Positions 1-61,712 of a stretch of DNA of 64,000 nt are shown here, in pieces; the stretch's first letter is position 1; each line of letters starts with the position of its first letter. Source of the stretch: Argopecten irradians (lineage: Eukaryota > Mollusca > Bivalvia > Pectinida > Pectinidae); the NCBI RefSeq assembly GCF_041381155.1, contig NC_091143.1, forward strand, positions 28,831,331 to 28,895,330, given 5' to 3'. The translations under genes were made by a program, and so were the position numbers. The notes under the pieces are model-generated. The model made no database searches. It was not told where the DNA came from and was given only the letters and a program-made list of their open reading frames with translations.

Positions 1-2770
1 TATGTTTGCCGGCTGGAGTGTTGGTATGGAAGGGTTCTGTCACCATGAGGATGCGGGAGTCAGAATAGGACCTACTGGTTATAGATATGCTGTAATGCAG
101 GTAACAGAATATAGTCGGTAATTCAATGTCATGATGCTCACTTTACCGGCCAGTATGTGGTACAAATGCTGATGTTTCGTGTTTCTTATTGCAATGTCAA
201 ATATTTAATGTTTTTGATTGGTTGCTATTTTTGGTGTGACATAAGATTTGTCTCATAAGTTAGAATAGGTGTTATCCATTGCTGGAAAGATAAGCATGTG
301 TATCAGCTCAGTCAGAACATTAACTTGATATACAAAAATTGTATTGTGTAAATATTGCATATGTATGATTCTTTCTTTTTAAATGTGTGAACTACAGACA
401 TAAGATTTGTCTCATAAGTTAGAATAGGTGGTTATCCATTGCTGGAAAGATAAGCATGTGTATCAGCTCAGTCAGAACATTAACTTGATACAAAAATTGT
501 ATTGTGTAAATATTGCATATGTATGATTCTTTCTTTTTAAATGTGTGAACCTGTAGATGCACTGGAACAACCCGACCAAGGAGCGTGATCAGACTGACAG
601 TTCGGGCATGACTTTGTACTACACCCCCGTGTTACGGCAATACGACCTGGGTAACCTCATGATAGGAGAACATATCTTCCGTATTCCTCCAGGGGAATCT
701 AGTTATACAGTGGAATCAGAATGTAGTTCCAGTAGTTCGGCCAGCTTGATGAACAGTTCTATTTATATCATAAGTGGATTGAACCACATGCATTACATGG
801 GTGAGTTTTTATTTTATCGTGAATTGTAAGGAAGGGATCTTGGGTGTCGGGTATTGTAGTGGTTAAGGCACTCAACATTCACTTAGCCGGCCGGGGTTTA
901 TCCACGGCAAGCTCGTGAAAAGATTACGTGTTAGCTTCCCGATCACTTTAAGACCCTTCGTGTGCTTATATCCAAGTCATCGAAACTGACTTATATAAGT
1001 TATAAACTTGTTTAGTAATCGATGTAAAATGAAGGTTGTTTTTTTTTAATTTTGTAAGGAAAGGTAGTTTGTTTGGGATACTTGATTACTATTTTACTAT
1101 ATGAAACATAACTTGTACAGAAATGTATAAATGGTCTATTATAACTGTTGCCAATGTCAGTTCTTATGCTATGTATTGTAGGTAAATCCATAACGACATA
1201 CCACACCCCAGCAGGAGGTGCTGAACAAGCTATCATGGACGACCCACATTTTAGTTACGATAATCCAGTCACACACACGTAAGCCCACAAGGTTCTAGAG
1301 TCTAACCCCCCAAAACGATACTTGTGACTACTGTAAATGCATCCTAAAAGGTTAAATTTAACATACCGTATTGCTGGTAATTTTCTCTATTTCTCGGGAC
1401 AATAGTGTGATCGCGAAACATTGAGAAATGAGTGAATAATACATATACCGCGAACATAGAAATAATTTGATCTCTTCAAACACTATTAAAATTTTGATTT
1501 TAATCACATGTTAATTAAAAATGAATAAATTCGAATTGGTTTAAGGGAATAAGGTCAACTGTATGAATATTTTCCTCAAATATTCCCACTTATTGTTTCG
1601 AATATTTATGTCGGTAAAATACTTAAAACACTAATCTTTTTTTTACATTTAAATGTTTATAAACTAAAAATAACAAATTATGAATTGGTGCATATATTGT
1701 GTCCTTATCATATAGGTTGATGAATATACTAATTATCTATTAATAGTTATTATACTAATGTTTTTGCAGCTTTCCAAGTCCGTTGAAGGTCAACCCTAGA
1801 GATGCGTTGAGGACAAAATGTACGTTTAGTTCCTTAAGTAAGGATTTGACGACCACTAGCGGAGAGTCGACCTCCCAGGAAATGTGTTATGGGTTTTTAT
1901 TTTACTACCCTAAAACGTCATTCGAGGGAGGAGAATGTACCACTGTCATGGGCCTACCACTGCATTTAGTCAGAGATGACACGAAATTGATCGAAGGATG
2001 CCAGTTAAAATCTTTTCTCGGAAATCTGAACAATTTTAAGGATATGTTTAATAAGGTGAATAGATCACTTTGATTGTCCTTAAACACGCTAAAATTAGCA
2101 TTTAAATTTATTTACTGTAAATAACGCTATTTTTGCGTGTACAATATTTTGCGTCAACGTTATGTTGGACATATTGCCGAGTGCATATAAATTCGGGTTC
2201 AAGAACTTTCAATGTCAATCGTAAATTCGTAAATAAATAGTAGTATAGTAATTCTAATGATATTATATCTTTATTTAAGCGGTTTTGTTTTTATCATATC
2301 GTCGACATTTCATAGCACATTTGATGGAATCTGTCACTGATATCCTATTTACAAACCAAAGGTTTCAGGAGTCAATACTTTTACCATTCCTGGCTAAGAA
2401 ACATTAAAACTTAAAAGGTTTCGCAAATTGTGCATTTGAATACTTAAAATTACTTTACTTTAATTTTTTATTCTGATTTCACTTTCAGCTTACAACGCGA
2501 TGTGAACCTTTCTTCTGTCGGAAGGAGTGTAAAGAGTATTTGATGGAACTGAGACAAAATCCTTGTTTGCAGGGAAAAGTCAAAGCTTATGTTGACTATT
2601 TACTCAATACTAATGGCGCTACCAGTAGTATGGCGCTCTACCACTCCTGTGATACAGAGATAGCGCTGGAGGTTGTCGAACCTTGTGTAAAATACACTGG
2701 AACAGCCGCATCCACCCACAAGTCGTTCTATGTGTTTGTCATCGCTATCATTGTTATATTTACCTTGTAG
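1..2770 (+). CDS. Gene A: temptin/copper type II monooxygenase, 3' part (five exons, 5' cut by window edge)
   Basis: Copper type II, ascorbate-dependent monooxygenase of the DBH/PHM/MOXD superfamily. The visible exons are 1-100 (partial, frame starts at base 2), 557-800, 1182-1278, 1770-2055 and 2489-2770, all with GT-AG borders and a continuous frame of 335 residues plus TAG. The third CuH-site histidine is in HWNNP at the start of exon 557. The CuM ligands are both histidines of NHMHYMG at its end and the Met of QEMCYGFLFYYP in exon 1770. The temptin domain and the HH pair would lie left of the window. Coding sequence is almost identical to gene B, so the two are recent duplicates. The last exon ends in a hydrophobic tail (SFYVFVIAIIVIFTL) with no cytoplasmic part, which suggests GPI anchoring. 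Relative to genes C and D it lacks about ten residues containing the C-x-C motif, in frame. Substrate is unknown: family members hydroxylate phenylethylamines or glycine-extended peptides. Confidence 0.85.
238..556 (+). repeat. 159-bp tandem duplication in gene A intron 5
   Basis: Two near-identical 159-bp units run 238-396 and 397-556, both beginning GACATAAGATTTGTCTC and ending in a pyrimidine-rich stretch followed by GTGTGAAC and CTACAG or CTGTAG. The second unit supplies the 3' splice site of the exon at 557. The first therefore carries a duplicated acceptor at 396. Gene B has a single, more diverged version of this intron end. Confidence 0.85.
838..1014 (+). mobile_element. Degenerate tRNA-derived SINE-like copy in gene A intron 6
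   Basis: Starts with an A-box-like stretch (TAGTGGTTAAGGCACTC) and a weak B-box-like CCGGGGTTTATCC, then a tail reading ATCGAAACTGACTTATATAAG. The same element sits in the same intron of gene B (10424-10560), so the insertion is older than the A/B duplication. RNA polymerase III boxes are degenerate. The family is not identified. Confidence 0.5.
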
Positions 2771-3036
2771 AGTCACATGTTGCTGATAAAGATAACTTTA
2801 ATCCCTTTATGTTGTATTTACCTCAATACATACTATATATTGAAAGTCCCCTGAAGAACGGCAAGAGCTATGAAAGCGCTTGGGAGAAGCTAAACTATTT
2901 ATTGTTGTGTTGTATTCAAGAGTCGAAAAATCCAAAGACTTCCATAGTCATGACTACTGCAATGGCATATAATGATATGAAACGTAACCGAATTTTAACT
3001 TGTGTCAACTGAATGCAGTGCCGATATTTGTGCTGA

Positions 3037-3402
3037 TTAAAGATGCTCCATCGCCGACAGAGCATAAACGACATTCATCATTTGAACAATAATTGGTGTT
3101 TAATCGTGTACTGATATTCCTAATTAACATAAAAAAATAACACAAAATAATTTATTTTGCCTTTGATGCATGCACAATCATTCTTCATTCCATATAGGAT
3201 ATAGTGCCACAGAATTTTTTCGGGATGCAATGAATTATTTTTCATATTTTTAACTTGATAAGTAAAATTAAAAGCTCGAACTTTTCAATGGTGGTAATGG
3301 TGTAAAGTAAGTAACTTTTGTAACGGAAGAAAAATACTAAATCGTCTGCTCCTGTTTTTGATAGTGAAAAAATATCATTTGTCAGCGGTGGAGCATCTTT
3401 AA
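3037..3402. mobile_element. MITE with TTAAAGATGCTCC terminal inverted repeats
   Basis: A 366-bp element whose 23-bp ends pair with two mismatches: TTAAAGATGCTCCATCGCC at the left and GGTGGAGCATCTTTAA at the right. It has no coding capacity. A second copy truncated at its right end lies at 27185-27490, and a fragment on the other strand at about 50792-50846. Both ends read TTAA, which may reflect the target site. Confidence 0.8.
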
Positions 3403-6077: not shown

Positions 6078-9000
6078 ATGAGGAGTGCATGTTTGTTACT
6101 TATTTTGAAAGCAATCGTCTTTTCCTGTATCCATGGATACCCATCTTTTCAATCACTTATTCCAAATGGAAATAAGCTTACTGACCCCTGTAATGGCTCA
6201 ACCCCCTGGCCAGGGGTAGGTCATGAAGCTATGGGAGGTGGTGGACTTCTAAATCCATTTGGACACGACTTCAACATCACTGGGAAGGTACAGTAGTTAT
6301 AATTTTTATACTGTGGAGTGCTTTAAATTCGTGGGGTAAATATTTGGCGGATGCTTATTTATGGGACATATTCTCTGACTTTATTAATTTCTTGGATCAC
6401 TGATTCCTAAAATTCCTGAATTATTCTTACTATATAAGTATGTCAATGAATAATTCGCTGGAGTTTACAAATAAATCTTAACAGAAATATTCATTTATTA
6501 GTATACTTTCCCATTTAGCAAGGACGTCTCACTTATAAATCCTTGCATTTAGAAATCATTTTGACGTCTTACCAGCAAATACAACAGGTCGTTACAAACT
6601 CTAAAAACTGTTTCGTGGTATTTGAAACATATATGTATTTTCATCATTTATCAAAGAATAAATATAGATTATATTTCTATGTAGCCAAACAATTTTCTTA
6701 TGATTTTAATTACGTATTACCGCATTTTACCGAATTAAGCGGACATTAGCGCGTGGACGATGTTTCGCGATTTCGTGGGACAATGCTATCATCATGAAAA
6801 TTCTATCCATGTACTTGTAAGAAATATTAAAAATCATAAATTCCCTGATATCCTAATCACGAAAATTAAAACCCGTTAGAATTTAATGAAGTCTAAAATC
6901 GCGGAAATTTTGACCCGCTTAAATGAGAGGCAGTATCACAGTAATATCATAGTTTGTGTTATATACTCTATCGATATGTTTTCTATTGTTATAGGTATGG
7001 AACACCGCCCTGTGTGAAATGGACTCGGATGGAGACGGAGTCTCCAACGGAGAGGAACTCGGCGACCCAAATTGTGAATGGACACCGGGGTTAAGTCCAG
7101 CCGGTCAACCAACTGGTCATCCAGGTATGTTTCATTCCCTACTGGTCATCCAGTTATGTTTTATTCCATAAATTAGTCAACTTATCTGCTGGACTGGGCA
7201 AAGAGATATTACGCCAACGTGTACACGATTGTGTGAAATATATACAAAATTCAAATTTTGTTTGAGTGACGACTTTATAAAACTGACCATGACTAAAGAC
7301 ACAGGTAAAATGTGTTCAGACAAATTCAGATCTAAATCAAGTCAATTTTATCTTAAAGGAATAACAAATCATGCAGTCGACGTAAACATGATCAGAAATT
7401 ACTTGAAATTGACATAGATTCATCTATGTAAATTGACGATTTTTTGAGATATAGCAAAAAGATTATTTTATAAGTCATAAGACACAGATGACATTGTTGC
7501 TCTACAGGTGTCTGTGAGCCCTGGAGTGACCCTTTATGTCTGCAAAAGAACAGATTCTACCAATGTATGACAGAAAACTTTACATGTGACGCCATCAACG
7601 ATCCAGGTAAGACAAAAAGTTTTATACTAAATCAGTACGGCTAATTTTCACGTAGTTAGCAGGGAATTTGAATTCGCGAGAATTAATCAGGCTCCGTACA
7701 TTTATAACTTGTTTGTCATTCACTTTATTTGTATTTCAGACGTTCGAGATTTGGTTGTTAGGTTCCCGGTTACACAGGTTCCTGTAGAAGAAACAACCTA
7801 CATGTGCATGAATTTTGCCTTACCTGCCGACCAGGATTATCACGTGATCGCAGATAGAGGTTCAATCGATAACCAATTCGTCATACATCATATCATAGTC
7901 CACGGATGTACAGTTGATGGTTTGTACATACATTGAACCTTGTCTTAGGGACCACCTCTGTTTAAAAATTATCTGTGTATCAAGACCACTTGACTATACC
8001 ACCATTTTTGGTCCCTTTTGGTGGTCTTTACAGACATCATAAATGTCATTTGAAACTTTGATAGTAATAATCTTTTACAGAACACGAAAACGCTTACCAT
8101 TGAAATGCGTATGAAGCATAAAAATATAAGATAAGTAGATCGTTATATCATTAGCTCGGTCGGAAAAATGAAATTTTCCTAAAATAATATAGAATAAAGA
8201 AATATTCAAAATGGCGTTTGGTTTCGTTACACATTCCATTTATGTATGAAATAATTTACAAACTAACCTATTTTGCAGTAGTTGATGTTTTCGTTTACAT
8301 TTCAAACGATTAAGTTAATTCAGCAATTTACAATTTTAAAAAACGTTATGTAACGAGTAGCTAAAACATTATTGTAGCCAGCGGCGTAGCTAGGTCTGGA
8401 TAGGCCTGCATGCATGGGGGTGCAGCGTCCAGGGGCGAAGCCCCGGTACGGGGTATGGGGGGCAAAGCCCCGGTACGGGGTATGGGGGGCGAAGCCCCCC
8501 AGAAGCTGACGGGAAATTGTTACAATGTAGTAACCATTTTACTTCTTTGGTAACTTTTAACGTATTTACCAATGGTTAAATGGTGGTCACGATATTTAGG
8601 TGATAACCATGCAAAACTATATACATTGTATACATTCTAGACTCTCGTGACAAGTGCTCGAACAAAAAACACTGATTTTGGCTGTAAATATTAAATTAGT
8701 AAGTAATGGGAGAATTTTGTGTTATTTTAACTGATGAAAAAATAAAAGACAACTATTTCGTGACACCGGAAATCACGGATTAACACGCGTACGCGTTTTA
8801 ACGTGGCGTGAAGTGAACCAAAATTGATCAATTCACTTTTTCGTCACTAAGGCCAAGAACATGTTGCAATTGCTTTAATTAAGTTGTTTTGCTATCACTT
8901 TAAGATGATTATATGTTTTTAGAATATTTCTAACTTTTCATGCGATGTTGTTTATTTTGGTATTCGTTATAAGTGTTTCCCGATTCAAAATCCACAATTG

Positions 9001-12000
9001 CTTGAGGGATTTTGGTAAAGACGTCTTCTTCTTTAGTTTAAATCTAATATTGTCTTCGAAAAAATTCAAACATATTTAACAACTTGCTTGGTAACCGGAA
9101 ATATATAGACTATTCTAATAAATTTCCAGAATGGCCAATCCTCAAGTCTTTCAAATGTGCACAAAGTTATGTCAGGCATACAGTTTGGCATATCATATGT
9201 ATTTATACATAATTCTGCAGCGTTACGTGTATTCAAATGTTGTGTTTTTTTTCTGAATGTAAGTCAGATTATTTTTTGCATGCTTGAGCATGCAAGCATG
9301 CACGGGCGCTACGCCACTGGTAGCTTATCATTTTCGCGAATTCAAATTGCCGCGTAATATGAGATGTTTATCGCACACGGAATGACGTTGATTAAAATTC
9401 TTATTGATCTTCTAACAGATGTAACTGAACTAAACAATCCGTTAATGACTCCCTACGCCTGTGGTATGGCTGGAGAACAGAAATGTCGGGAGATGTTTGC
9501 CGGCTGGAGTGTTGGAATGGAAGGGTTCTGTCACCATGAGGATGCGGGAGTCAGAATAGGACCTACTGGTTATAGATATGCTGTAATGCAGGTAACAGAA
9601 TATAGTCGGTAATTCGAGTTCATGATGTTCACCTTACGAGACACGGGGACGATATGCACATCCATTTATGATTTCTAAATAGTTTTTGTTTTTTGACCAG
9701 TCATAAGTCTAATGAAAGTTATTTCAATGTGAAACGTTAAATATTTTGATTGGTTGCTATTTTTAGACCGGTAAAAATATTACTTTCATATGTCGGTAAT
9801 TCAAGGTCATGATGCTCACCTAACGAGACCAGTGGACAATACACATCCATTTTATTATTAAAAAATGTTTTATCCTGTCGCATTGGGCCAGTCTTTCGTG
9901 TTTCTTATTTCAATGTCAGATATTTAATGTTTTTGATTTGTTGCTATTTTAAGACCACCTGACATAAGATTAGCCACATAATCCACGTGATCTTAAGGAT
10001 TATTTAAAATGACAGGTATTATATTTTGCTGAAAAGATAAGCATATTTATCGGATCAATTAAATCACTTGATACTAAAATCATTTCGTGTTAACGTTGCA
10101 TATGTATGATTCTTTCTTTTTAAATGTGTGTACCTGTAGATGCACTGGAACAACCCGACAAAGGAGCGTGATCAGACTGACAGTTCGGGCATGACTTTGT
10201 ACTACACCCCCGTGTTACGGCAATACGACCTGGGTAACCTCATGATAGGAGAACACATCTTCCGTATTCCTCCAGGGGAATCTAGTTATACAGTGGAATC
10301 AGAATGTAGTTCCAGTAGTTCGGCCAGCTTGATGAACAGTTCTATTTATATCATAAGTGGATTGAACCACATGCATTACATGGGTGAGACTTCTTTTTTT
10401 CTGATTTCCAAGAAAGCGTACTTGGGTGACGGGGTGTAGTGTTTAAGACACTCATCATTCACGTCGGGGTTTCTCAACGCACCTCGGTGTCCTTCCACTT
10501 TAATACCCCTCACACGCTTATGTCCTGGCCATCGAAAGTGATATATATATAAGTTACTTATATTATTTGTTTTGCATGTCTATTTGTATTTGTTTTAAAA
10601 TTCTGATTGGATGCTGCTAGGTTCCGGCGACCAATGAAAACGGGGCTTTTATATGTCTACATGACTGTCAATAACAGCTCCTAGCGAAGGTTTATTACTG
10701 ACTATTTAAAAAAATCAATGTTTTAAATGAAATACTTGGACACAATATGTTAATCTTTGGTATTTTGAATCTGTCGCAAACAACATGCGTGTTTCTGAGG
10801 GCGCTGCCATTTTTCAACCATACATTAAATATGAGGTTTTTAATTGTATAATGGAAGGGGCGCAACTGTGATTATTCAGCAGGTGGCTTCAATTTTGACG
10901 CGAGATCCGCCAAGGGTTACAGCTAGAACCAGTATACGTACCCGGTCTACTATACCTTTCGGACGGGTACGAAATGGTGCCTATGTGTCGTAGTGGAGCA
11001 CTGCCTCAGAATATCATTCGGGCACAATACTTTTTTGTATGTTTTAAGCGTATATATACAATTATATATTACTTTTGTCCACAACTAACATAACGAACTT
11101 TCTTTATATCTATCATACCGCTCACAAGACGTCAAATTCACAATTTGTAGACCTGCCGTATAGTTTTTCTTCGACAGGACCTTTAAATTTATATTTGAAA
11201 AAATGTATCATCTTTGTGAATTTTATATTTTATACAATTTAGTTTTATTACCTAGTAGGTCATTGATATCAAACAAGTACGATATAATATTTATAGACGC
11301 TTTAAGAATGATTTTCACAATCATTTATTTCCTCCATTAGCAGGAATGGGCACTAATTGTAGCTCTAAAGACGACACCATTACCTGTCTAAAGTCTTTTG
11401 AGCTACAATATTGCAGCTAGGTTACAGTGAGAGCATCAGACTGAATACCCTTGGCTAGCGAAGTTGTATCTTACCACATGAAACGTAATTTGTATAGAAA
11501 TGTGTTCAATGGTATTCTATATATTCAAATAGTGTCTTTTACTTATATCAGTTCTTATGTTCGTTTTGTAGGTAAAACCATGACGACATACCACACCCCA
11601 TCAGGAGGTGTTGAACAAGCTATCATGGACGACCCACATTATAGTTACGATAACCCAGTCACACACACGTAAGTCTTAGAGGCTCAAGAGTGTAACTCTC
11701 CAAAATGGTGTTTTTGACAGACATAATAAATTACTGTTAATGCATTTTTGGAAGGTAAATTAAACATTGAAATACCGTATCGCCGGTTATTGTCGCGATT
11801 TGGCAGGACATATATTATGATAATCTGGTGCTTTCTCTCAATTCGTCCGTTATTGTTTAAAAAAAAAAAATCTAAATTTTTAAATTAATGTTGGTTAAAT
11901 ATGATTATAATATGTTTTTGCAGATTTCCCACACCGTTGAAGGTCAACCCTGGAGATGCGTTGAGAACAAAATGTACGTTTAGTTCCTTACGTAAGGCTC

Positions 12001-12840
12001 TGACGACCACCAGCGGCGAGTCGACCTCCCAGGAAATGTGTTATAGCTTTTTATTTTACTACCCTAAAACGTCATTTGAGGAAGGAGAATGTACAACTGT
12101 CATGGGACTACCGCTGCATTTAGTCAGAGATGACACGAAATTGATCGAAGGATGCCAGTTAAAATCTTTTCTCGGAAATCTGACAAATTTTGAGGATATG
12201 TTTAATAAGGTAAATAGATCACTTTGATTGTCCTTAGACACGCTAACATTAACATTTAAATTTATTTACTGTAAATAACGCTATTTTTGCGTACACAATA
12301 TTTCGCGTTATGTTAAACTTATTGGCAAGTGCATATAAATTCGCGTTCAAGAGGTTTCAATGCCAATATTGCAATCGTTAATAGATGGTGGTAGTAATTC
12401 TAATGATATTATATCTTTATTTAAGCGGTTTAGTTTTTATCATATGGTCGACGTTTCATTGCACATTTGGTGGAATTTGTAACTGTTATCTTAATTACAA
12501 ACCAAAGGTTTCAGAAGTCACATGCTTTTATCATTCCTGGCTCAGAAACATAAAACTTCGCAAATTGTACATTTTACTACTTGCAACATTTTTTTAAAAA
12601 TTTATATTTTGATTTCACCTTCAGCTTACAACGCGATGTGAACCTTTCTTCTGTCGAAAGGAGTGTAAAGAGTATTTGATGGAACTGGGACAAAATCCTT
12701 GTTTGCAGGGAAAAGTCAAAGCTTATGTTGACTATTTACTCAATACTAATGGCGCTACCAGTAAAATGGCGCTCTACCACTCCTGTGATACAGAGATAGC
12801 GCTGGAGGGTGTCGAACCCTGTACCTGTACAACTGCCTAA
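6078..12840 (+). CDS. Gene B: temptin-domain copper type II monooxygenase, complete, secreted form
   Basis: Nine coding exons join in frame to 544 residues: 6078-6287, 6995-7124, 7508-7606, 7740-7919, 9419-9591, 10140-10383, 11572-11668, 11924-12209, 12625-12840. All introns are GT-AG. Residues 1-20 are a signal peptide, with likely cleavage before YPSFQ. Residues ~21-130 form a temptin-like Cys domain with a Ca-site-like DSDGDGVSNGEELGDP. Monooxygenase N and C domains follow. The CuH ligands are H196, H197 (FVIHHIIVHGC) and H266 (MHWNNP). The CuM ligands are H341, H343 (NHMHYMG) and M416 (SQEMCYSF). The protein stops at EPCTCTTA, just before the hydrophobic anchor tail seen in A, C and D, so it is probably released. 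An AG at 6052-6053 upstream of the ATG suggests a 5' non-coding exon further left. Substrate is unknown. Confidence 0.9.
8379..9319. mobile_element. TIR element in gene B intron 4, with GC-rich internal repeats
   Basis: Ends read CAGCGGCGTAGC and GCTACGCCACTG, inverted with one mismatch. GTAGC flanks both sides as a 5-bp direct repeat (8374-8378 and 9320-9324). CAGNGGCGTAGC ends recall hAT-type elements, but an 8-bp duplication would be expected and is not seen, so the superfamily is uncertain. Near its left end, 8410-8505, are short repeats of GGGGCGAAGCCCC and GGTACGGGGTATGG, far richer in GC than the surroundings. No transposase frame survives. Confidence 0.7.
10424..10560 (+). mobile_element. 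SINE-like copy in gene B intron 6, orthologous to the one in gene A
   Basis: It matches 838-1014 in order (GTAGTGTTTAAGACACTC, then TCGGGGTTTCTC, then ATCGAAAGTGATATATATA) and occupies the same intron. It therefore predates the A/B duplication. More degenerate than the copy in A. Confidence 0.45.
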
Positions 12841-13790: not shown

Positions 13791-15526
13791 GGTCACCTGA
13801 GTTAGAATATATAATTAAAGAAATAATGAAACAAATTAAAGACATATAAACACTATATGCTGGGCCTTGAAGTTGGTCAGTGATTTATAAATTTGACTTT
13901 TTAGACTATGAAGAGTATTTGCCTCCATCAAACCTGTGAATTTAGAGGTATTTTTTTTAAATTTTAATCATTTTGACCCTGTTTGGTCCTGCCCCTCTGG
14001 TCCCCCAGGGGGTCATCGAGGACGGATATGGATGTTAAAATGCTATATCTTAGGCTAATAATTCTAATCAAGTATGACTCATTTCCTACGAAAATTGGGC
14101 AAATAATGTTCACAAATATGTTTTTCCTATATAAACTAAAGTAAACTTGACCCCTCCCTAGGGGGTAAAGTGAGACCCCAAGGTCATATAATTCACAATT
14201 TTTATAAAACATTTTAAGACCTTTCCATCTATAATTATTTGATTCTACTATATCCAGAATTTTAGAAGATTTTTGAAGTTTTAGCCTATTTGACCCTTTT
14301 TTAGACCCGCCTCTATGCCCCCAGGGGGTCGGCCAGGACCAATGTGAATATGATATTTAAATGCTATCTCAGGCTTATAATTCTAACCAAGTTTGGCTCG
14401 TTTCCAATGAAAATTGAGCAAAACATGCTCATAAATGTGTTTTTCCTAAATAAACAATAGTAAACTTGACCCCCTCCCCAAGGGGAAACAGGAGACCCCA
14501 GGATCATATAATTTACAATTTTTATAAACAAACTTTAAGACCTTTTCATCTATAAAGTGTATTTTTTTATACCATTTCCAGAATTTTAAAAGAATATTTT
14601 TGAAGTTTTAGCCTATTTGACCTTTTTTGGCCCCGCCCCACTGCCCCCAGGGGGTCGGCCTGGACCAATATGGATATGATATTAAAATGCTATCTCAGGC
14701 TAATAATTCTAACCAAGTTTGACTCATTTCCAATGAAAATTGAGCAAAACATGCTCATAAATGTTTTTTCCCTATATAAACTATAGTAAACTTGACCCCC
14801 TCCCCAGGGGGAAACGTGAGACCCCAGGGTCATATAATTCACAATTTTTGTAAAGGACCTTCAGACCTTTCTATTTATGAAAAGTATTTGATTCTACCAT
14901 TTCCAGAACTTCAGAAGAAGATTTTTGAAGTTTTAGCCTATTTGACCCCTTTTGACCCCGCCCCTAAGGCCCCTGGGGGTCAGTCATAGAAAATTTGTTA
15001 ATAGGATTAAATGGCCATCTCATACTGATAATTCTGACAACATTTGACTCATTTCCTATTACAAATGACCAAATAATGCGCAAAAATGTGTTTTCCCAAT
15101 ATAAACTATAGTAAACTTAACCCCCTCCCCAGGGGGAAACTTGAGACCCCAGGGTCATATAATTCACAATTTTTGTAAAGGACCTTAAGACCTTTCTATC
15201 TATGAAGAGTATTTGATTCTACCACATCTGTGAGTAGAGAAGAAGATTTTTGAAATTTTACTCAATTTTACCCCTTTTGGCCCCTCCCACAGCCCCCTGG
15301 GGGTGGGGACCATATAATTCACAATTTTGATTGGCCTTATGCCTTAGAAGGTTTGTGCAAAATTTCATTGAAATTGCTTCAGCAGTTTTGGAGAAGAAGT
15401 CGAAAATGTAAATTGTTTACGGACATACGACGGACGACGGACGACGCCCGACGCACGACGGACGACGGACGACGACGGACAAAAGGCGATTAGAATAGGT
15501 CACTTGAGACTTCGTCTCAGGTGACC
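13791..15526. mobile_element. Non-autonomous element with four ~325-bp internal units and terminal hairpin
   Basis: Begins GGTCACCTGAG (13791-13801) and ends CTCAGGTGACC (15516-15526), an exact inverted repeat. Inside are four tandem units starting at 14146, 14465, 14791 and 15116. Each carries CTTGACCCCCTCCCCAGG, then TCATATAATTCACAATTTT, then a TTTGACC..CCGCCCC..CCAGGGGGTC stretch. A (GGACGAC)n tract at about 15420-15480 precedes a hairpin at 15498-15527 made from AGGTCACTTGAGAC and GTCTCAGGTGACCT. No coding frame. Sequences with this kind of end are, from memory, common in bivalve genomes. A truncated 3' end of a relative lies at 25665-25738. Confidence 0.75.
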
Positions 15527-23245: not shown

Positions 23246-23469
23246 TTCTTGTTCGTCTTGAACTTGAACTTTCGGTGAGTTAAACGTCATTCAGCGGAAT
23301 GATGTCATTTTTACAATATCGAAATTCTCGTATGGCCGTGTAGTCTTTTTCTTGGCTCATGGCAAAGGCATGCATTGTAAAATAGTTCTTTGATGGGTAA
23401 TTATTATTATTTTTTTTAAATTATTTGCATATTGTTTTAGTGATATTATACACTGAATACAATTACTGG

Positions 23470-44779: not shown

Positions 44780-45275
44780 CTTGTCCTCAGCGGGACTGGT
44801 TACCTCACAAATATTACGAAACTACCCCCTGGATCAAAATGGGTGGGTGTTTCACAACCAGTCACGGGATGTTTAAACACTTGTTTGTTAAGGGTTGGTA
44901 ATACCTGGTCAGTGTACATGTATGATCATTGAACCGTATCGTGTCCATTCCACAATAAACATAATAGACCCAATTCTCGTCCACCAACAATGACAATAGA
45001 GAACCAGATTTCGCTACAGGTTAACGAAATCTATTCATGTCACCATTCAATATAGGTAAACACACAGGGATCTGGAAATTAGTTGTACAGTTTATATATC
45101 GTATACAGTTATACAGTTTGGACCTATCAGAGTGTCCAAAGTCCATTCTTGGGCGTTTAAGGGGTTCTATATAAAATAGGTAAAAGCCTATTCTAAATTG
45201 AACTGTACATGGAATGTGTGGTACATGTACAGTGTACCATGTCATCCTCGATACTCCAGGGGTTATTATCATTGG
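44780..45275. repeat. Unit Q, copy 1
   Basis: Matches 49801-50296 closely. It ends with the MITE-end-like CATCCTCGATACTCCAGG, then GGTTATTATCATTGG, after which the two copies diverge. Confidence 0.8.
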
Positions 45276-45283
45276 AATAAACA

Positions 45284-48243
45284 TTAACATTTTTTCAACC
45301 GAAGTAGACAAATGAGGTATCAAAATGACCACATTTAGAACTAAACAAATACATATCAGGACCAAAAAATCCAATATATGTAGTGATTTCTACGCAGGAA
45401 ATGAAAACATCGGATTTTAAGCTCAAAAATGGTGATTTTTCAGCAAATTTTCATATTTTGTTTGACGCAGCAAAAATGTTTCCCAACAAACAATCTATTA
45501 TTTCTAATAAGTTTTTTGACCACTTATCAATCTGTTTACAACAACAACAACAACAACAAAAACCAAATGTTAACATTGTATAGGTTCCGGTTATGACGTC
45601 ATCAAGATGGCCACCATCTCGAATTTCACTTAAAAAATGAAGAATAGTCATAACACTGATATTTTTCAACTAAAGTAGACAAATGTGGTATCAAAATGAC
45701 CACAATAGAACGACAAATACATATCAGGACCAAATAATCCAATATGTGTAGTGATTTGTACGGAAAAAATAAAAAAATAAGCTTTTAAGCTCAAAAATGG
45801 TGATTTTTCAGCAAATTTTTCATACTTGGCTTGACGCAGCAGAATATGTTTCCCAACAACAAATTATTACTCGTAATCAGTTATTTAAAACTCCTATCAA
45901 TCAGTAAAATTAAAAAACATCATCAATAAATATATAGAAATGCAAAAAAAGAATTATTGTTATACTCCTCAATTTTTTAGCAGCGTAGAATTAGCATAGC
46001 GTCATCAAAAATAACACAACACCTACTGATAGCGTAACAAATGTAACCTAAGCTAAGCCATGTGTTTCCGTTAATATCATTAACAGTTCCCAAAGCGTTT
46101 TTTTGTGTCTTTGAAAATGAGCACATTCATGTGTTTATTTCCTATGCATTAGCATAAGCAAAATGTCAGATGGTTACTACAATGTCACTAAATAATATGT
46201 CTTTCACTGGTTCTCAATGATAAAACCATTATCATTGTGCGTGCTTTCTCGCCTCACTGACCTATCCACTGAAGAGACTCGGCATATCTGGTAGCTGGTA
46301 CATGCAGTCCGAATCAGAGTACTCGAGAGATATCAGTATCCAATTCGTCGAAAGCCAGATCGACGTTTTCGATGTCGATGAGCTCATGTGACACTGCATT
46401 ACCAGTGTTGTTCTAGCCTTTTATGACCCATCCATGACCAGAGTTCATATCAAGAACAAACAGGTTCAGGGATGTGGGTTCTCTTTCAGATTCTTAACAT
46501 ATCGTACGTATATGCTGTTTCAGACTTCTCCGGCATAATGGAAATTACACCAGATGCACATTCTTCCAATGGTGGAATTGGTTCTCCTTAGCACATTAAC
46601 TCCATAATTGGTATGAAGTACTTTCATCAATCTTGTGGACCCTCGTGCAACCATAAATGGCACAGGTTGATATCATTGAGGTCATTAATGAGGGCATATA
46701 ATGTTAAATGTTTTTTCATTGGTCTGACTTTCTCCCACTCCCTTGTAAGGTGCTGGTTGTGTCACATCTGGTGTATGCGCAAAGAGACCATTGAAGACTC
46801 TCCAGTAAAAAGTTCTCTAAAGTGCTTTCCAGACTTGGCAAAGAGTGAACTTCACTGCAGACCTCATTGTATGACCTCAAAAAAAGAATCCACCTGTGCC
46901 ACCTATGGTCACTGAGGTTCACAAGAATGAGGAATTGTGCCTTCATTTTATATCAAATTAAGGAGAACCAACTCAATCCTCCGCAGATGTTGATTGGTGT
47001 CTTTGTCCATCATGCCGGCGGAAGTCTGGAACATCCCATATAAATATGTGAATCTAGGTGGAAACTAGGTTGGAAAACAGGGAAGAGGGCTCCCACATAC
47101 CTGAAACCGATGTTTATGATCTTAACTCTGACCATGGACAGTTGACAAGTTAGAACCACGATGGTAACCGGTAATGTAATGTCAATCAGGTCACCGAGGT
47201 CGAAGACGACACTCTGGCGAGAAAGCACGCACAACGAAAATGATTAGCATTAAGAAATAGTGAAAGAAATATGTGGACACTGTAGTAACCATCTTATATT
47301 TCCTTGCGTTATACACAGGAAATAAACAATGGATGTGCTCATTCTAAAAGACACAATATGTTTCGAAAAGTGTCATGGTATTTACGGAACTTTAATTTGA
47401 TACCCTATAGCTATTAGTTAGCGTTTTGCTGTAATAATTAGTTTTTGAGAGGCTACTAGTCTACAAAATTTCGAACATGAAAATGGATTATTTTGAAGTC
47501 CTCCACTTAGATATTCAGCCAACTTTAAATTCAAATTTGTTAAGATATAAATCGTCAATAGCCAATGTTATATTCAGGAAATTCCAAGACACCAGGAAAC
47601 TGTAGTGTTAGCGGTTGGAAAAATAACAATCATATGCCGCATCCGGTGATGTTTTGTAAACCAAATGATGGTATAACAATTCTCTTTTGCATTTCTATAT
47701 ATTTTTTGTTGTTGTTGTTTTAACAGATTGATAAGAGGTTCAAATAACTGATGTGAATAATAATTTGTTGTTGGGAAAACAATTTTGCTGCTGTCAAGCC
47801 AAATTGAAAAAATGCTGAAAAATTACCATTTTTGAGCTTAAATAATTATTTTTTTTTCATTTCCTGCGTTCAAATCACTACATTTATTGGATTATTTGGT
47901 CCTGACATGTATTTGTTGTTCTATTGTGGTCATTTTGATACCTTCATGTGTCTACTTCAGTTGGAAAAATGTCAATGTTATGACTATTTTTTATTTTTTC
48001 AGTGAAATTCGAAGATGGTGGCCATCTTGATGACGTCATAACCGGAACTTTATACGATGTTTAACATTGGTTTTGGATTGTTTTTGTTGCTGAAAACTGA
48101 TTGACAAGTGGTCAAAAAAACTTATAAGAAATTAATAGATTGACTGTTGGGAAACATTTTTGCTGCGTCAAACAAAATATGAAAAATTTGCTGAAAAATC
48201 AACATTTTGAGCTTTAAATCCGATTTTTTTTTCATTTTCCTGC
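45284..48243. mobile_element. Large foldback element with ~0.6-kb inverted arms
   Basis: The left arm, about 45284-45960, contains two tandem ~380-bp units (from 45284 and 45664), each with AGTAGACAAATG, GTATCAAAATGACCACA and GCTCAAAAATGGTGATTTTT. The right arm, about 47690-48243, is the reverse complement of the same sequence, including CGGTTATGACGTCATCAAG and a (CAA)n/(TTG)n tract. About 1.7 kb lies between the arms. It sits exactly at the junction between the two P/Q units. Confidence 0.75.
46260..47235 (-). pseudogene. Possible decayed transposon ORF inside the foldback element
   Basis: The minus strand between the arms shows broken frames. At 46716-46946 the peptide ends YTRCDTTSTLQGSGRKSDQ, which resembles the (T)GCDTxSxxxGxGK motif of a multicopy uncharacterised protein common in cnidarian and mollusc genomes; this comparison is from memory. 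Further on, a piece reads LPPLEECASG in another frame. Several stops and frameshifts. Identity uncertain. Confidence 0.3.
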
Positions 48244-48244
48244 G

Positions 48245-49800
48245 TTCTCGCTCTGAAACTGTCAAGTGGCTATATACACTGTCGACAATTTATTTACTTC
48301 CGTTCATACGTCCTTATACGATGTACGTTCTGAATAAACTATCAAAAAGACGGTAACGGATATCCCTTAGTGATATCAAACTGGATACATGTTTCAAGGG
48401 TATACTGTACATGTGTAGAAAACGAAACCTCACGCAATAAATGGATGAAATAACAGGCTAGGCCTATATAAATCTTCTCCATGGCGGTTTAAAAATCATT
48501 TGCATTAGGTAAATAATACCCAGTCTCATAAATTCCTAAACATATTTCATCTTATAACCAAAGAAATAATAAGAATAAAAATAACCTGCATCTTTACAGT
48601 ACATAACTTTAAGGTTCATGTAAAGGCTTTAACCAGTGACATTGTGCAAGCCTATAACTCATTACTGTGCTGCAATTGAACAAAACTAACTTCATTAATT
48701 GTTGGTATGTACCCTGGCTAACTGTCAGTCTTACTGTGGATATGTAATTTGTGAAGCTGCTTGTAAATTTCAATAAAATAAGAGAAAAATGCATATTTCT
48801 GGAGAAGACATATAACTCGTGTGAATTGCATTGAAGGAACCAAATAAGCATGCTATCGTGTTCAGTAGTGACTATGCCAAGTACTCCAACAGTTTGTTTG
48901 GCAAAATCGGACCAGCGAATAGCGCAGGAGCCTATTGTTGAAATGCAAATGGCTGCTTTAAATGGCGGATCACAAATATAGCATATAAGAAGACATTTTA
49001 ATTGATACAGGTGCTCTTGTATACACTATAAGGTACTCTGAACATGACAAGAAGACTATTTACGAATAAAAATAGTTAAAATGTTGACTTTGAGGCTCTT
49101 TCCGGAAACTTGCATTTTTCGCCCCAAACAGATCGGTTGAACTATTTTTTTCGTGAAGAGTCTTCTTGTCATGTTCAGAGTACCTTATGGTGTCTTTAAG
49201 AACATTTGTATCAATTGAGATGGCTTCTTATGTGCTATATTTGTGATCCGCCATTTATAGCAGCCATTTGCATTTACTACAATAGGCTCCTGCGCTATTT
49301 GCTGGTCCGATTTTGCCAAACAAACTGTTGGAGTACCTGGCATATTCACAACTGGACACGATGACATGATTATTTGGTTCCTTCAATGCAATTAACACGA
49401 GTTATATGTCTTATCCAGAAATATACATTTTTCTCATATTTTACTGAAGTTTACAAGCAGCTTCACAAATTACATATCAACAGTAAGACTGACAGTTAGC
49501 CAGGGTACATACCAACAATTAATGAAATTAGTTCTGTTCAATTGCAGCACAGTAATGAGTTTTAGGCTTGCAAAATATCACTGTTTAAAGCCTTTACATG
49601 AACCTTAACTCCATGCATGGCCTCAGCACGTGCATGTACCTGCCAATCGATAAACATCCAATATGGATTTGTGTTTGATTTTTATACAAGTAGCTGCTTG
49701 GAACGTAAGAGCTAGCTTCAATAGTTGTTACTTTAAAATCTAACGCACATTTAAACACTACATGTATACAAAAGCTAAGAACAAAAATGTACTTACATTA
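48245..49800. repeat. Unit P, copy 2, with the same internal palindrome
   Basis: Near-identical to 41852-43406. The inverted arms here run about 48609-49070 and 49140-49611. Confidence 0.85.
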
Positions 49801-50296
49801 GCTTGTCCTCAGCGGGACTGGTTACCTCACAAATATTACGAAACTACCCCCTGGACAAAATGGGTGGGTGTTTCACAACCAGTCACGGGATGTTTAAACA
49901 CTTATTTGTTAAGGGTTGGTAATACCTGGTCAGAGTACATGTATGATCATTGAACCGTATCGTGTCCATTCCAAAATAAACATAATAGACCCGATTCTCG
50001 TCCACCAACAACGACAATAGAGAACCAGATTTCGCTACAGGTTAACGAAATCTATTCATGTCACCATTCAATATAGGTAAACACACAGGGATCTGGAAAT
50101 TAGTTGTACAGTTTATATATCGTATACTGTTATACAGTTTGGACCTATCAGAGTGTCCAAAGTCCATTCTTGGGCGTTTAAGGGGTTCTATATAAAATAG
50201 GTAAAAGCCTAGCCTAAATTGAACTGTACATGGAATGTGTGGTACATGTACAGTGTACCATGTCATCCTCGATACTCCAGGGGTTATTATCATTGG
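49801..50296. repeat. Unit Q, copy 2, joined directly to unit P
   Basis: Close match to 44780-45275 with no intervening segment. It continues into a short palindromic MITE remnant (CATCCTCGATACTCC at 50270 to ATCGAGGATGG near 50341). Confidence 0.8.
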
Positions 50297-53029: not shown

Positions 53030-56000
53030 TTGAGTGTATTGCCGAAGACCAGCCAATATTACAGCTGTAGGTATAAGAGAAAGCCTCAGGCGACATGAGT
53101 GTATTGCCCAAGACCAGCGAGTATTACACCTGTAGGTATGAGAGACAAGCCAGTATTACACCTGTAGGTATGAGAGACCAGCCAGTATTACACCTGTATT
53201 TATGAGAGACCAGCCAGTATTACACCTGTAGGTATGAGAGACAAGCCAGTATTACACCTGTAGGTATGAGAGACTAGCCAGTATTACACCTGTAGGTATA
53301 AGAGAAAGCCTCAGGCGACATGAGTGTATTGCCCAAGACCAGCGAGTATTACACCTGTAGGTATGAGAGACAAGCCAGTATTACACCTGTAGGTATGAGA
53401 GACCAGCCAGTATTACACCTGTAGGTATGAGAGACCAGTCAGTATTACACCTGTATTTATGAGAGACCAGGCAGTATTACACATGTATTTATGAGAGACA
53501 AGCCAGTATTACACCTGTAGGTATGAGAGACCAGCCAGTATTAAACCTGTAGGTATAAGAGAAAGCCTCAGGCGATATGAGTGTATTGCCCAAGACCAAG
53601 CGAGTACTACACCTGTAGGTATGAGAGACCAGCCAGTATTACACCTGTAGGTATGAGAGACCAGCCAGTATTACACCTGTAGGTATGAGAGATCAACCAG
53701 TATTACACCTGTAATTATGAGAGACCAGCCAGAATTACACCTGTAGGTATTAGAGACCAGCCAGTATTACACCTGTAGGTATGAGAGACCAACCAGTATT
53801 ACACCTGTAGATATGAGAGATCAGCCAGTATTACACCTGTAGGTATGAGAGACCAGCCAGTATTACACCTGTAATTATGAGAGACCAGCCAGTATTACAC
53901 CTGTAGGTATGAGAGACCAGCCAGTATTACACCTGAGGTATGAGAGACCAGCCAGTATTACACCTGTAGGTATGAGAGACCAGCCAGTATTACACCTGTA
54001 GGTATGAGAGACCAGCCAGTATTACACCTGTAGGTATGAGAGACCAGCCAGTATTACACCTGTAGGTATGAGAGACCAGCCAGTATTACACCTGTAGGTA
54101 TGAGAGACCAGCCAGTATTACACCTGTAGGTATGAGAGACCAGCCAGTATTACACCTGTAGGTATGAGAGACCAGCCAGTATTACACCTGTAGGTATGAG
54201 AGACCAGCCAGTATTACACTTGTAGGTATGAGAGACCAGCCAGTATTACACCTGTAGGTATGAGAGACCAGCCAGTATTAATTACACCTGTAGGTATGAG
54301 AGAACCAGCCAGTATTACACCTGTAATTATGAGAGACCAGCCAGTATTACACCTGTAGGTATATGAGAGACCAGCCAGTATTACACCTGAAGGTATGAGA
54401 GACCAGCCAGTATTACACCTGTAGGTATGAGAGACCAGCCAGTATTACACCTGTAGGTATGAGAGACCAGCCAGTATTACACCTGTAGGTATGAGAGACC
54501 AGCCAGTATTACACCTGTAGGTATGAGAGACCAGCCAGTATTACACCTGTAGGTATGAGAGACCAGCCAGTATTACACCTGTAGGTATGAGAGACCAACC
54601 AGTATTACACCTGTAGGTATGAGAGACCAGCCAGTATTTACAGCCAGTATTACACCTGTAGGTATGAGAGACCAGCCAGTATTACACCTGTAGGTATGAG
54701 AGACCAGTCAGTATTACACCTGTAGGTATGAGAGACCAGCCAGTATTACACCTGTATTTATGAGAGACCAGGCAGTATTACACCTGTATTTATGAGAGAC
54801 AAGCCAGTATTACACCTGTAGGTATGAGAGACCAGCCAATATTACATCTTAGGTATGAGAGACCAGCCAGTATTACACCTGTAGGTATAAGAGAAAGCCT
54901 CAGGCGATATGAGTGTATTGCCCAAGACCAGCGAGTATTACACCTGTAGGTATGAGAGACAAGCCAGTATTACACCTGTAGGTATGAGAGACCAGCCAGT
55001 ATTACACCTGTATTTATGAGAGACCAGCCAGTATTACACCTGTATCTATGAGTGTATTGCCCAAGACCAGCGAGAACTCTACACCTGTAGGTATAAGAGA
55101 CAAGCCAGTATTACACCTGTAGGTATGAGAGACCAGCCAGTATTACACCTGTAGGTATGAGAGATCAACCAGTATTACACCTGTAATTATGAGAGACCAG
55201 CCAGTATTACACCTGTAGGTATGAGAGACCAGCCAGTATTACACCTGTAGGTATGAGAGACCAGCCAGTATTACACCTGTAGATATGAGAGATCAGCCAG
55301 TATTACACCAGTAGGTATGAGAGACCAGCCAGTATTACACCTGTAATTATGAGAGACCAGCCAGTATTACACCTGTAGGTATGAGAGACCAGCCAGTATT
55401 ACACCAGAAGGTATGAGAGACCAACCAGTATTACACCTGTAGGTATGAGAGACCAGCAAGTATTACACCTGTAGGTATGAGAGACCAGCCAGTATTACAC
55501 CTGTAGGTATGAGAGACCAGCCAGTATTACACCTGCATTTATGAGAGACCAGCCAGTATTACACCTGTAGGTATGAGAGACCAGCCAGTATTACACCTGT
55601 AGGTATGAGAGACCAGCCAGTATTACACCTGTAGGTATGAGAGACCAGCCAGTATTACACCTGTAGGTATGAGAGACCAGCCAGTATTACACCTGTAGGT
55701 ATGAGAGATCAGCCAGTATTACACCTGTAATTATGAGAGACCAGCCAGTATTACACCTGTAGGTATTAGAGACCAGCCAGTATTACACCTGTAGGTATGA
55801 GAGACCAGCCAGTATTACACCTGTAGGTATGAGAGATCAGCCAGTATTACACCTGTAGGTATGAGAGACCAGCCAGTATTACACCTGTAGGTATGAGAGA
55901 CCAGCCAGTATTACACCTGTAGGTATGAGAGACCAGCCAGTATTACACCGGCATTTATGAGAGACCAGCCAGTATTACACCTGTAGGTGTGAGAGACCAG

Positions 56001-57963
56001 CCAGTATTACACCTGTAGGTATAAGAGACAAGCCAGTATTACACCTGCAGGTATGAGATACCAGCCAGTATTACACCTGTAGGTATGAGAGACCAGCCAG
56101 TATTACACCTGTAGGTATGAGAGACCAGCCAGTATTACACCTGTAGGTATGAGAGACCAGCCAGTATTACACCTGTAGGTATTAGAGACCAGCCAGTATT
56201 ACACCTGTAGGTATGAGAGACCAACCAGTATTACACCTGTAGATATGAGAGATCAGCCATTATTACACCTGTAGGTATGAGAGACCAGCCAGTATTACAC
56301 CTGTAATTATGAGAGACCAACCAGTATTACACCTGTAATTATGAGAGACCAGCCAGTATTACACCTGTAGGTATGAGAGACCAGCCAGTATTACACCTGA
56401 AGGTATGAGAGACCAACCAGTATTACACCTGTAGGTATGAGAGACCAGCCAGTATTACACCTGTAGGTATGAGACACCAACCAGTATTACACCTGTAGGT
56501 ATGAGAGACCAGTCAGTATTACACCTGTATTTATGAGAGACCAGCCAGTATTACACCTGTATTTATGAGAGACCAGCCAGTATTACACCTGTAGGTATGA
56601 GAGACCAGCCAGTATTACATCTGTAGGTATGAGAGACCAGCCAGTATTACACCTGTAGGTATAAGAGAAAGCCTCAGGCGATATGAGAGTGTATTGCCCA
56701 AGGACCAGCCAGTATTACACCTGTAGGTATGAGAGACCAGCCAGTATTACACCTGCATTTATGAGAGACCAGCCAGTATTACACCTGTATTTATGAGAGA
56801 CCAGCCAGTATTACACCTGTATTTATGAGTGTATTGCCAAAGACCAGCGAGAACTACACCTGTAGGTATAAGAGACAAGCCAGTATTACACCTGTAGGTA
56901 TGAGAGACCAGCCAGTATTACACCTGTAGGTATGAGAGATCAACCAGTATTACACCTGTAATTATGAGAGACCAGCCAGAATTACACCTGTAGGTATTAG
57001 AGACCAGCCAGTATTACACCTGTAGGTATGAGAGACCAGCCAGTATTACACCTGTAGGTATGAGAGACCAGCCAGTATTACACCTGTAGGTATGAGAGAC
57101 CAGCCAGTATTACACCTGTAGGTATGAGAGACCAGTCAGTATTACACCTGTAGGTATGAGAGACCAGCCAGTATTACACCTGTAGGTATGAGAGACCAGC
57201 CAGTATTACACCTGTAGGTATGAGAGACCAGCAAGTATTACACCTGTAGGTATGAGAGACCAGTCAGTATTATACCTGTAGGTATGAGAGACCAGTCAGT
57301 ATTATACCTGTAGGTATGAGAGACCAGTCAGTATTACACCTGTAGGTATGAGAGACCAGCCAGTATTACACCTGTAATTATGAGAGACCAGCCAGTATTA
57401 CACCTGTAGGTATAAGAAACAAGCCAGTATTACACCTGTAGGTATGAGGGACCAGCCAGTATTACACCTGTATGTATGAGAGATCAACCAGTATTACACC
57501 TGTAATTATGAGAGACCAGCCAGTATTACACCTGTAGGTATTAGAGACCAGTCAGTATTACACCTGTAGGTATGAGAGACCAGCCAGTATTACACCTGTA
57601 GATATGAGAGATCAGCCAGTATTACACCTGTAGGTATGAGAGACCAGCCAGTATTACACCTGTAATTATAAGAGACCAGCCAGTATTACACCTGTAATTA
57701 TGAGAGACCAGCCAGTATTACACCTGTAGGTATGAGAGACCAGCCAGTATTACACCTGTAGGTATGAGAGACCAGCCAGTATTACACCTGTAGGTATGAG
57801 AGACCAGCCAGTATTACACCTGTAGGTATGAGAGACCAGCCAGTATTACACCTGTAGGTATGAGAGACCAGCCAGTATTACACCTGTAGGTATGAGAGAC
57901 CAGCCAGTATTACACCTGTAGGTATGAGAGACCAGCCAGTATTACACCTGTAGGTATGAGAGA
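53030..57963. repeat. 32-bp minisatellite, about 150 copies
   Basis: Consensus unit TATTACACCTGTAGGTATGA plus GAGACCAGCCAG, with a period of exactly 32 over most of the array. Common variants change GGTATG to ATTATG, TTTATG or GATATG, and CCAGCC to CAAGCC or CCAACC. A longer interruption (AAGCCTCAGGCGACATGAG, then TGTATTGCCCAAGACCAGCG) recurs near 53082, 53305, 53563, 54890 and 56660, so blocks of units were duplicated together. The left end (53030-53110) has the most divergent units. 32 is not a multiple of three and stops occur, so it is not a coding repeat. Confidence 0.97.
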
Positions 57964-59310: not shown

Positions 59311-59312
59311 AT

Positions 59313-59972: not shown

Positions 59973-60069
59973 CCAAGTACTGACCGCTGGTCGGTGGTGT
60001 TTCTCCGGATACTCAAGTTTTCCTCCAACAACAAACCTGGCACTTCCTTACATGACCCTGGCTGTTGAA
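59973..60069 (+). mobile_element. 5'-truncated SINE
   Basis: CAAGTACTGACCGCTGGTCG through ACCTGGCACTTCCTTACATG to CCTGGCTGTTGA matches the central and tail parts of the SINE at 18680-18901. The tRNA-like head is missing. Confidence 0.75.
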
Positions 60070-60570
60070 AGCTTTTGTGGCTATGTGGTTGAGTGTCGGT
60101 GCCCGTATACCTTTGTTATTCTAGTTATTCGATGGATGACTGCTCTGTTGATTCCAGCTCAGACTTGGCACTTACAGCAGAAGTTTTACAATATTTTGAT
60201 AAAAAAGACATTTTGTTTTGCCATTTTGTAATCCTGTCGTCACGTCATTGTCGATTTTGATGTCACAATGAAAAATGTTGACGAGCACAGTTTGTAAAGA
60301 AACTCAATGTCAACACTTATGGCGAGAAAAAACCCAATTCTATGGTGTAATTTTCCAACCCTGACTTCACAATTAAAAATGTTGCCGAGCAAAGTCGGTA
60401 AAAAATTGTGTCAACACTTTTAGCGATAAATAAAAAAACAAAACAAAAATCGAAGAGTCAAGTCAGTAAAAAAGTCAACACTCATGGCGGGAAATGACAA
60501 AAAAATATTGATTGATCACAGGACGTGGACATATCCAAATCATTCTGAGATCGAAATATTTAAGAATTAA

Positions 60571-60707
60571 CCTCTTACTTTGCTTAGTTTATGAGATGAT
60601 AAACCCAATGGAGCACAAGGTAAATTGCGTAAACGCGAAGCGTTTATGTACAATCTACCGACTGCTGCATTGGGTTTATCATCTCATAAACTAAGCAAAG
60701 TAAGAGG
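60571..60707. repeat. Perfect 40-bp inverted repeat (foldback MITE)
   Basis: Arms 60571-60610 (CCTCTTACTTTGCTTAGTTT...) and 60668-60707 (...CTAAGCAAAGTAAGAGG) are exact reverse complements. The 57-bp centre has a further pair (GTAAACGC and GCGTTTAT). No mismatch in the arms suggests a recent origin. Confidence 0.85.
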
Positions 60708-61409
60708 CTAAATCTTATATTTACAATATTTATCTTAAACGATGAAATCAACAAAAACGTCAGATACAATCATTCGCGGTCAAAATTATACTGCCGTTAT
60801 TTTGATCAAAGCACAACAGCCATTCAAAAAAGCGTGCCGTTGACTGACAGCTTAATCACGCCATTTTTCCATTACGTCACAAAAACTAGTTCTCATATTT
60901 CTGTTTTATTCATGCCAAAATGGCAATAATGCATTCAAAAAAATAAATTTATTTCATTGTAAGTTTCCGATTGTCTCGTACGTTTTGTGGAACGTCAAAG
61001 GAAGTCCTCCAATGTTTACAGGTATTCATACGCACCGAATCGGGTCACGTTCTGCACTCAAGTTATTGGAAAATAAACAGATCTGCACCAACTTAGTTTA
61101 TCGATACAGATATAGTGGCAATTGTAAATATTATGTATTAAAGCATTTCAATGGTATATCTTTATTGGTAGTCTAGGGCTGGTTATCAAACTTCCTTTGT
61201 TCGTATCATGGATTGTCCTAAGAATTGAAGGCTAAAACCATGTTGAGTTGTTTTAGCTGTTCTACTTTAATATGAGAAGTCCGGTTTGAGAAAACAAACA
61301 TTGGTAAATAGATAAATGTATTCATTAATATTTAGATTGATGATTGACAAAAAATGCGAATAATAAAGATTTATTCTCGATGTACAAAAAAATGGGAAAT
61401 CGTTTGCTA
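60708..61409. other. 3' flank of gene D, nothing else seen
   Basis: AT-rich; no exon or repeat recognised. Confidence 0.45.
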
Positions 61410-61712
61410 TCATTTTGCAAAAATTGCGGCCATTGTTACCAGAAGAAGATAAAGCGACACCTGGTGAGAAGTGGCACGTCCGATGTCCTGGACGCATGGT
61501 CGTGTTGTACAGGTACAGGGTTCGATTGCCTCCAGTTTTATCTCAGTATCACACGAGTGGTAGAGTGCCATATCCTCTGCTCCGACGTAGAAGTTAAGAA
61601 CTCGATCTACATACCTTCCAACTTTGTCCATCATACAAGGGTGCAGCCGCAGTTCTTTGATGTATTCTTTGCATTCCTTACGACAGATGAATTTTTCACA
61701 ACGGTTGTGAAG
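61410..61712 (-). CDS. Gene D: last exon of a further temptin/copper monooxygenase gene
   Basis: The exon opens after TTTCAG (acceptor at 61713-61714) and encodes 100 residues ending in TGA. It matches the last exon of gene C throughout: RCEKFICRKECKEYIKEL, then MALYHSCDTEIKLEAIEPC, then CTCTTRPC, and finishes with the hydrophobic tail VSLYLLLVTMAAIFAK, a likely GPI signal. Preceding exons must lie right of the window, because none is found in the 2.3 kb of intron up to 64000. The exon is intact, so this may be a working gene, but the copper-binding parts cannot be checked. Confidence 0.8.
   Translation of the reverse strand, partial: LHNRCEKFICRKECKEYIKELRLHPCMMDKVGRYVDRVLNFYVGAEDMALYHSCDTEIKLEAIEPCTCTTRPCVQDIGRATSHQVSLYLLLVTMAAIFAK

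Follow-up and report, generated by a model that had tools for sequence, protein, structure and literature searches.

Does a scallop genome encode single proteins in which a temptin domain is joined to a copper type II monooxygenase, and if so, what might such proteins do? The question is raised by a 64,000-nucleotide (nt) stretch of Argopecten irradians DNA (RefSeq assembly GCF_041381155.1, contig NC_091143.1, forward-strand positions 28,831,331 to 28,895,330), referred to here as the window. A first-pass annotation had described temptin plus a complete two-domain monooxygenase within one reading frame in two genes, B and C. Exon models and Pfam searches bear this out, with both parts lying in a single open frame distributed over nine exons in each gene. 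The exons were taken from stop-to-stop reading frames and the printed sequence of the window, then joined by eye. The two genes and their parts are listed below.

6078-12840, forward strand: gene B, complete, nine exons, 544 amino acids (aa); temptin and copper monooxygenase, without a hydrophobic C-terminal tail
6078-6287, 6995-7124, 7508-7606, 7740-7919, 9419-9591, forward strand: gene B exons 1-5
10140-10383, 11572-11668, 11924-12209, 12625-12840, forward strand: gene B exons 6-9
6078-7124, forward strand: gene B exons 1-2, encoding the temptin domain after a start that resembles a signal peptide
7508-7606, forward strand: gene B exon 3, a 99-nt linker of the temptin and enzyme parts, phase 1 at either end
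7740-12209, forward strand: gene B exons 4-8, N- and C-terminal domains of the copper type II monooxygenase
39563-29993, reverse strand: gene C, complete, nine exons, 577 aa; temptin, copper monooxygenase and hydrophobic C-terminal tail
39563-39354, 36629-36500, 36221-36123, 34988-34809, 33197-33022, reverse strand: gene C exons 1-5
32715-32472, 31563-31467, 30922-30637, 30304-29993, reverse strand: gene C exons 6-9

In both predicted proteins the temptin domain is N-terminal to the two monooxygenase domains. Temptin_C (PF24784) was identified at aa 19-115 of B (E 6.6e-33, 113.6 bits) and aa 19-114 of C (E 4.2e-35, 120.6 bits); its curated cut-off is 27 bits. Cu2_monooxygen (PF01082) was identified with E-values of 2.4e-21 in B and 1.8e-21 in C, and Cu2_monoox_C (PF03712) with 2e-23 and 3.2e-23, respectively. 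All three domains score above their curated cut-offs in both proteins, and the matches are therefore far beyond chance. DOMON gave no Pfam match in B or C up to E 10. Each protein begins with a signal-peptide-like stretch, and the predicted isoelectric points (pI) are acidic (4.83 for B, 5.09 for C). The temptin regions have four cysteines in common, at positions 38, 77, 97 and 116. They also carry a D-x-D-x-DG stretch resembling a calcium loop (B aa 80-91), whose DSDGDG loop gives a sub-threshold Pfam match to a bacterial TSP3 repeat. The temptin part has no relative in the PDB (best E 1.8).

Protein C matched 14 PDB sequences. The best was human DBH (4zel, 1.4e-38), and the other 13 were PHM/PAM entries, PHM matching at about 6e-21. 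The DBH and PHM alignments span aa 147-436; the cysteine-rich C-terminal part of about 130 aa has no PDB relative (best E 0.7). Copper in human DBH is held by H262, H263, H333, H412, H414 and M487 (PMC4846438). Counted along the 4zel alignment, these six ligands correspond to H, H, H, H, H and M in C, and B carries the same motifs. Synthesis of amidated peptides, which the first-pass annotation had raised, was considered and rejected as unlikely because the residues that we take to hold the carboxylate of the peptide substrate in PHM (R240, N316 and Y318) are replaced. The PDB alignment places L, F and F at these positions in C.

The exon structure is shared by the two genes. Exon lengths are equal in 7/9 cases (210, 130, 99, 180, 244, 97 and 286 nt), the unequal ones being exon 5 (173 nt in B vs 176 nt in C) and exon 9 (216 vs 312 nt). 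Exon 3 of C, like that of B, is 99 nt long with phase 1 at both ends, and exon 3 would be spliced to exon 4 in both genes. GT-AG borders were found in 16/16 introns, a count that is partly built in because the boundaries were placed by eye.

Comparison of B with C was used to examine selection on the parts. Synonymous sites are saturated. The rate at nonsynonymous sites (Ka) is 0.197 for the temptin part (95 codons), and the upper bootstrap bound of its ratio to the synonymous rate (Ka/Ks) is 0.15. The enzyme part has Ka 0.244 (288 codons) and Ka/Ks 0.115, with an upper bootstrap bound of 0.19. For the linker, exon 3, Ka is 0.276 (32 codons), again at saturated synonymous sites, and the upper bound is 0.50. 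The zero Ka/Ks ratios obtained for temptin and linker, and all zero lower bounds, are products of an infinite Ks and were not used. Low Ka at saturated synonymous sites means that the temptin and enzyme parts have stayed joined ever since the duplication; the same holds, less firmly, for exon 3. The C-terminal part is less constrained (Ka/Ks 0.30, upper bound 0.56). Only in the signal peptide is there no sign of constraint (ratio 1.0 on 19 codons). Rapid evolution, as proposed from the first reading of this locus, was therefore rejected for the two domains, whose Ka is only 0.20 and 0.24 at saturated synonymous sites.

The first-pass annotation allowed that the architecture might already be on record, and it has in fact been in print since 2009. 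PMC2762978 describes a temptin/mono-oxygenase "hybrid" in an expressed sequence tag (EST) of the annelid Pomatoceros (GQ381308), in an Aplysia DBH-like protein (AAY42041) and in the Lottia genome (Lotgi1 192843). According to that report, temptin occupies the place that DOMON has in DBH-like proteins, and the annelid case shows the fusion in a transcript. The hybrid was not found there outside Lophotrochozoa and was termed a lophotrochozoan synapomorphy. The architecture itself is therefore not new. We are highly confident that the window genes belong to this hybrid family, a statement about family membership and not about function. What is new from the window is the clustered arrangement, the decay within the cluster, and the occurrence of predicted tethered and soluble forms.

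The cluster was mapped by tblastn searches of the window with every exon of B and C, which identified five loci. Those other than B and C are listed below.

1-2770, forward strand: gene A, 3' part, cut by the window start; hydrophobic C-terminal tail
2-100, 557-800, 1182-1278, 1770-2055, 2489-2770, forward strand: gene A, end of exon 5 (2-100) and exons 6-9
61712-61410, reverse strand: gene D, exon 9 only, remainder outside the window; hydrophobic C-terminal tail
19639-16470, reverse strand: E, decayed copy nearest C, exon remnants by tblastn
19639-19440, 18459-18330, reverse strand: E exon 1 (frameshift and stop) and exon 2 (intact)
17963-17904, 17899-17822, 16961-16887, 16547-16470, reverse strand: E exons 3, 4, 5 and 6, all truncated

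The earlier description of A and D as 3' exons only, and of E as broken, agrees with these models. It also spoke of at least five tandem loci. The five loci stand, but a single tandem array was rejected, as A and B lie on the forward strand, facing right, and E, C and D on the reverse strand, facing left. Exons 7-9 of E were not matched in the window by the B and C exons at E ≤ 1e-3. Three blocks of 496-612 base pairs (bp) align between E and C at DNA identities of 77-79%, and by its remnants E is a pseudogene, a decayed relative of C. Downstream of it, at 14024-15304, lies a 325 bp tandem repeat in four copies.

Over 313 codons A and B are 94% identical at the aa level (Ks 0.10), and their likeness extends into introns, where 948 and 445 bp align at about 89-90%. 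On this measure A is a recent sister of B. Exon 6 of A (557-800) differs from that of B (10140-10383) at 2/244 nt, compared with 6/97 in exon 7 and 21/286 in exon 8; local gene conversion is a possible source of the closeness in exon 6. Between its exons 5 and 6, A carries an intronic 158 bp tandem repeat in two copies that are 98% alike (238-550).

The loci also differ at their C-terminal ends. A, C and D carry a hydrophobic stretch, with maximum 16-residue hydropathies of 2.37, 2.20 and 1.99, respectively, preceded by small residues. B ends ahead of this stretch (0.46 over its last 30 residues), and past its end point A and B do not visibly resemble each other over the stretch compared. From hydropathy, the tail is predicted to resemble a signal for a glycosylphosphatidylinositol (GPI) anchor. 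The products of A, C and D would thus be tethered, whereas that of B, which lacks the tail, would be released. The soluble form of B depends on the nine-exon model, and a further B exon is possible.

What would such a protein do? We favour, with confidence no better than even, a hydroxylase driven by ascorbate, either secreted or tethered to the surface, and docked in extracellular matrix by its temptin module. The intact protein would most likely be secreted. Its temptin module would be disulfide-bonded and probably calcium-binding, in the position that DOMON has in DBH. The enzyme part would be a two-copper hydroxylase of the DBH/PHM class, dependent on ascorbate and O2, acting on a small phenolic amine or an aromatic side chain. 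Temptin may dock it outside the cell, on a partner protein or on a structure such as shell matrix, mucus or the cell surface, with A, C and D held there through the GPI-like tail and B released.

Published mollusc data give hints. In Haliotis laevigata a protein "similar to tyramine beta-hydroxylase/temptin" is among the major shell proteins, in nacre fractions only. Oyster mantle has DBH-like and Temptin-1/2 among its candidates for shell matrix proteins, and temptin-like genes of the zebra mussel are mantle-specific. Pinctada fucata PU1 is a Cu2_monooxygen shell protein of the prismatic layer. Several details of the same sources weigh against the docked hydroxylase. For the abalone protein the domain column names nothing beyond a signal peptide and a disordered C-terminus, which leaves it uncertain whether this is a full hybrid. 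The oyster mantle DBH-like and Temptin-1/2 proteins are separate entries in different groups. PU1 is basic (pI 9.49) whereas B and C are acidic, and the PU1 paper makes no mention of temptin. Further mollusc data lean to infection or stress response over shell, and the anchor type is itself a prediction judged by hydropathy alone. Together the hints favour extracellular sites without settling one.

Those infection data are the ground for a different function, which we regard as rather unlikely: an innate immune or stress effector, in which an oxidase on haemocytes or epithelial surfaces would be induced by infection or metal and temptin would serve as the adhesive module. Bacterial challenge raises two "dopamine beta hydroxylase-like" entries in both families of Crassostrea virginica, and one of them was matched to AAS92605, identified as temptin. 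DBH-like monooxygenase 1 is a marker of one haemocyte cluster in the Pacific oyster, temptin is up in mussel haemocytes after a lipopolysaccharide-type challenge, and copper-exposed mussel larvae show both a temptin and a DBH-like monooxygenase up. The induced transcripts were, however, named by best hits, and for none is the full hybrid shown in the available parts of these reports. The first-pass annotation had suggested a signalling fusion: temptin would serve as a water-borne attractant, set free from the enzyme or displayed on it, and the enzyme would make or modify a messenger. Such a role is possible, but we think it unlikely and do not prefer it over one in the extracellular matrix. 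Temptin does have an attractant role in snails (PMC10075465), DBH is the nearest solved relative of C, and "DBH-like monooxygenase" transcripts shift in infected Biomphalaria, where they were linked to dopamine levels. However, PMC10075465 also notes that temptin-like genes probably have other roles, including biomineralisation, and the zebra mussel genes are expressed specifically in mantle. The linker has no obvious dibasic cleavage site when read by eye, and in A, C and D the product would be tethered by its tail.

Two further alternatives concern the protein itself. It might be a catalytically silent structural protein in which the enzyme fold is retained for binding, a proposal we judge very unlikely. 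The abalone relative, so called by name, is embedded in nacre, and no activity is reported in the accessible part of the literature; but 6/6 copper ligands are kept in C and B, and the enzyme part is under constraint (Ka/Ks 0.115). Alternatively, temptin and monooxygenase could be separate adjoining genes that merely look fused, exon 3 being without a named domain. This we consider scarcely credible: order, phase and exon lengths match between B and C, exon 3 is conserved and no start-like break is needed, and the fusion is known from an annelid EST and an Aplysia protein (PMC2762978).

The docked hydroxylase can be extended to the duplicated family, in a form we offer as speculation and think distinctly improbable. 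Temptin would be a docking module open to reuse, positioning a two-copper hydroxylase on extracellular matrix, and loss of a GPI-type tail would have freed B. The paralogues would be split between mantle or gill surface and secreted matrix or mucus. The substrate would be foreign to known DBH and PHM, for example aromatic side chains of matrix proteins.

Elsewhere in the window, a large minisatellite occupies 53111-57963, in a GC-richer part, with a 32 bp unit (AGACCAGCCAGTATTACACCTGTAGGTATGAG) and higher-order periods of 64 and 96 bp. Two recent direct duplications with 98% identity pair 41852-43406 with 48245-49803 and 44777-45275 with 49799-50296; within them lies an inverted pair (42211-43211 and 49608-48609, 89%). 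The duplications at 41852-50296 are probably a mobile element. Open frames at 23444-24683 resemble, by eye, decayed pieces of a reverse transcriptase of the long interspersed nuclear element (LINE) type.

Little is added here as a discovery of architecture. The hybrid has been named a lophotrochozoan novelty since 2009, and in the part of the literature on temptin and monooxygenase that was accessible there is no substrate report or enzyme assay for it; the first reading likewise knew of no biochemical description. Two intact, diverged paralogues, one with (C) and one without (B) a predicted anchor, are a compact pair that can be tested. Knowing what the enzyme acts on and what temptin binds would show whether the main role of temptin is that of a pheromone or of an extracellular adaptor.

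Relatives were also sought in microbial and viral DNA, using two short peptide patterns per scan. Bacterial and archaeal contigs gave 71 and 76 matches and viral contigs 50 and 92, with 0 relatives by tblastn in either set, which is weak evidence. Among known systems, PHM belongs to the same fold family, but its peptide-holding residues are changed in C, so that amidation is unlikely. DBH, TBH and DBH-like monooxygenases such as MOXD1 share the catalytic core, in which C matches human DBH at 6/6 copper ligands. DBH and TBH combine that core with DOMON, whereas B and C have no DOMON match in Pfam and so fall outside that arrangement; the cysteine-rich C-terminal part likewise has no PDB relative. 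Aplysia temptin shares with B and C the Temptin_C domain and the calcium-loop-like DSDGDG, but is a stand-alone component of a pheromone complex, whereas in B and C it is the N-terminal module of an enzyme. The four cysteines that B and C have in this region are candidates for the two conserved disulfide bonds of temptin. The closest likeness is to the lophotrochozoan hybrid of PMC2762978, in which an N-terminal temptin is followed by PF01082 and PF03712 and DOMON is absent. Compared by description, the accessible part of that report deals with single genes, whereas the window holds at least five loci, one of them decayed, and adds forms with and without a hydrophobic tail.

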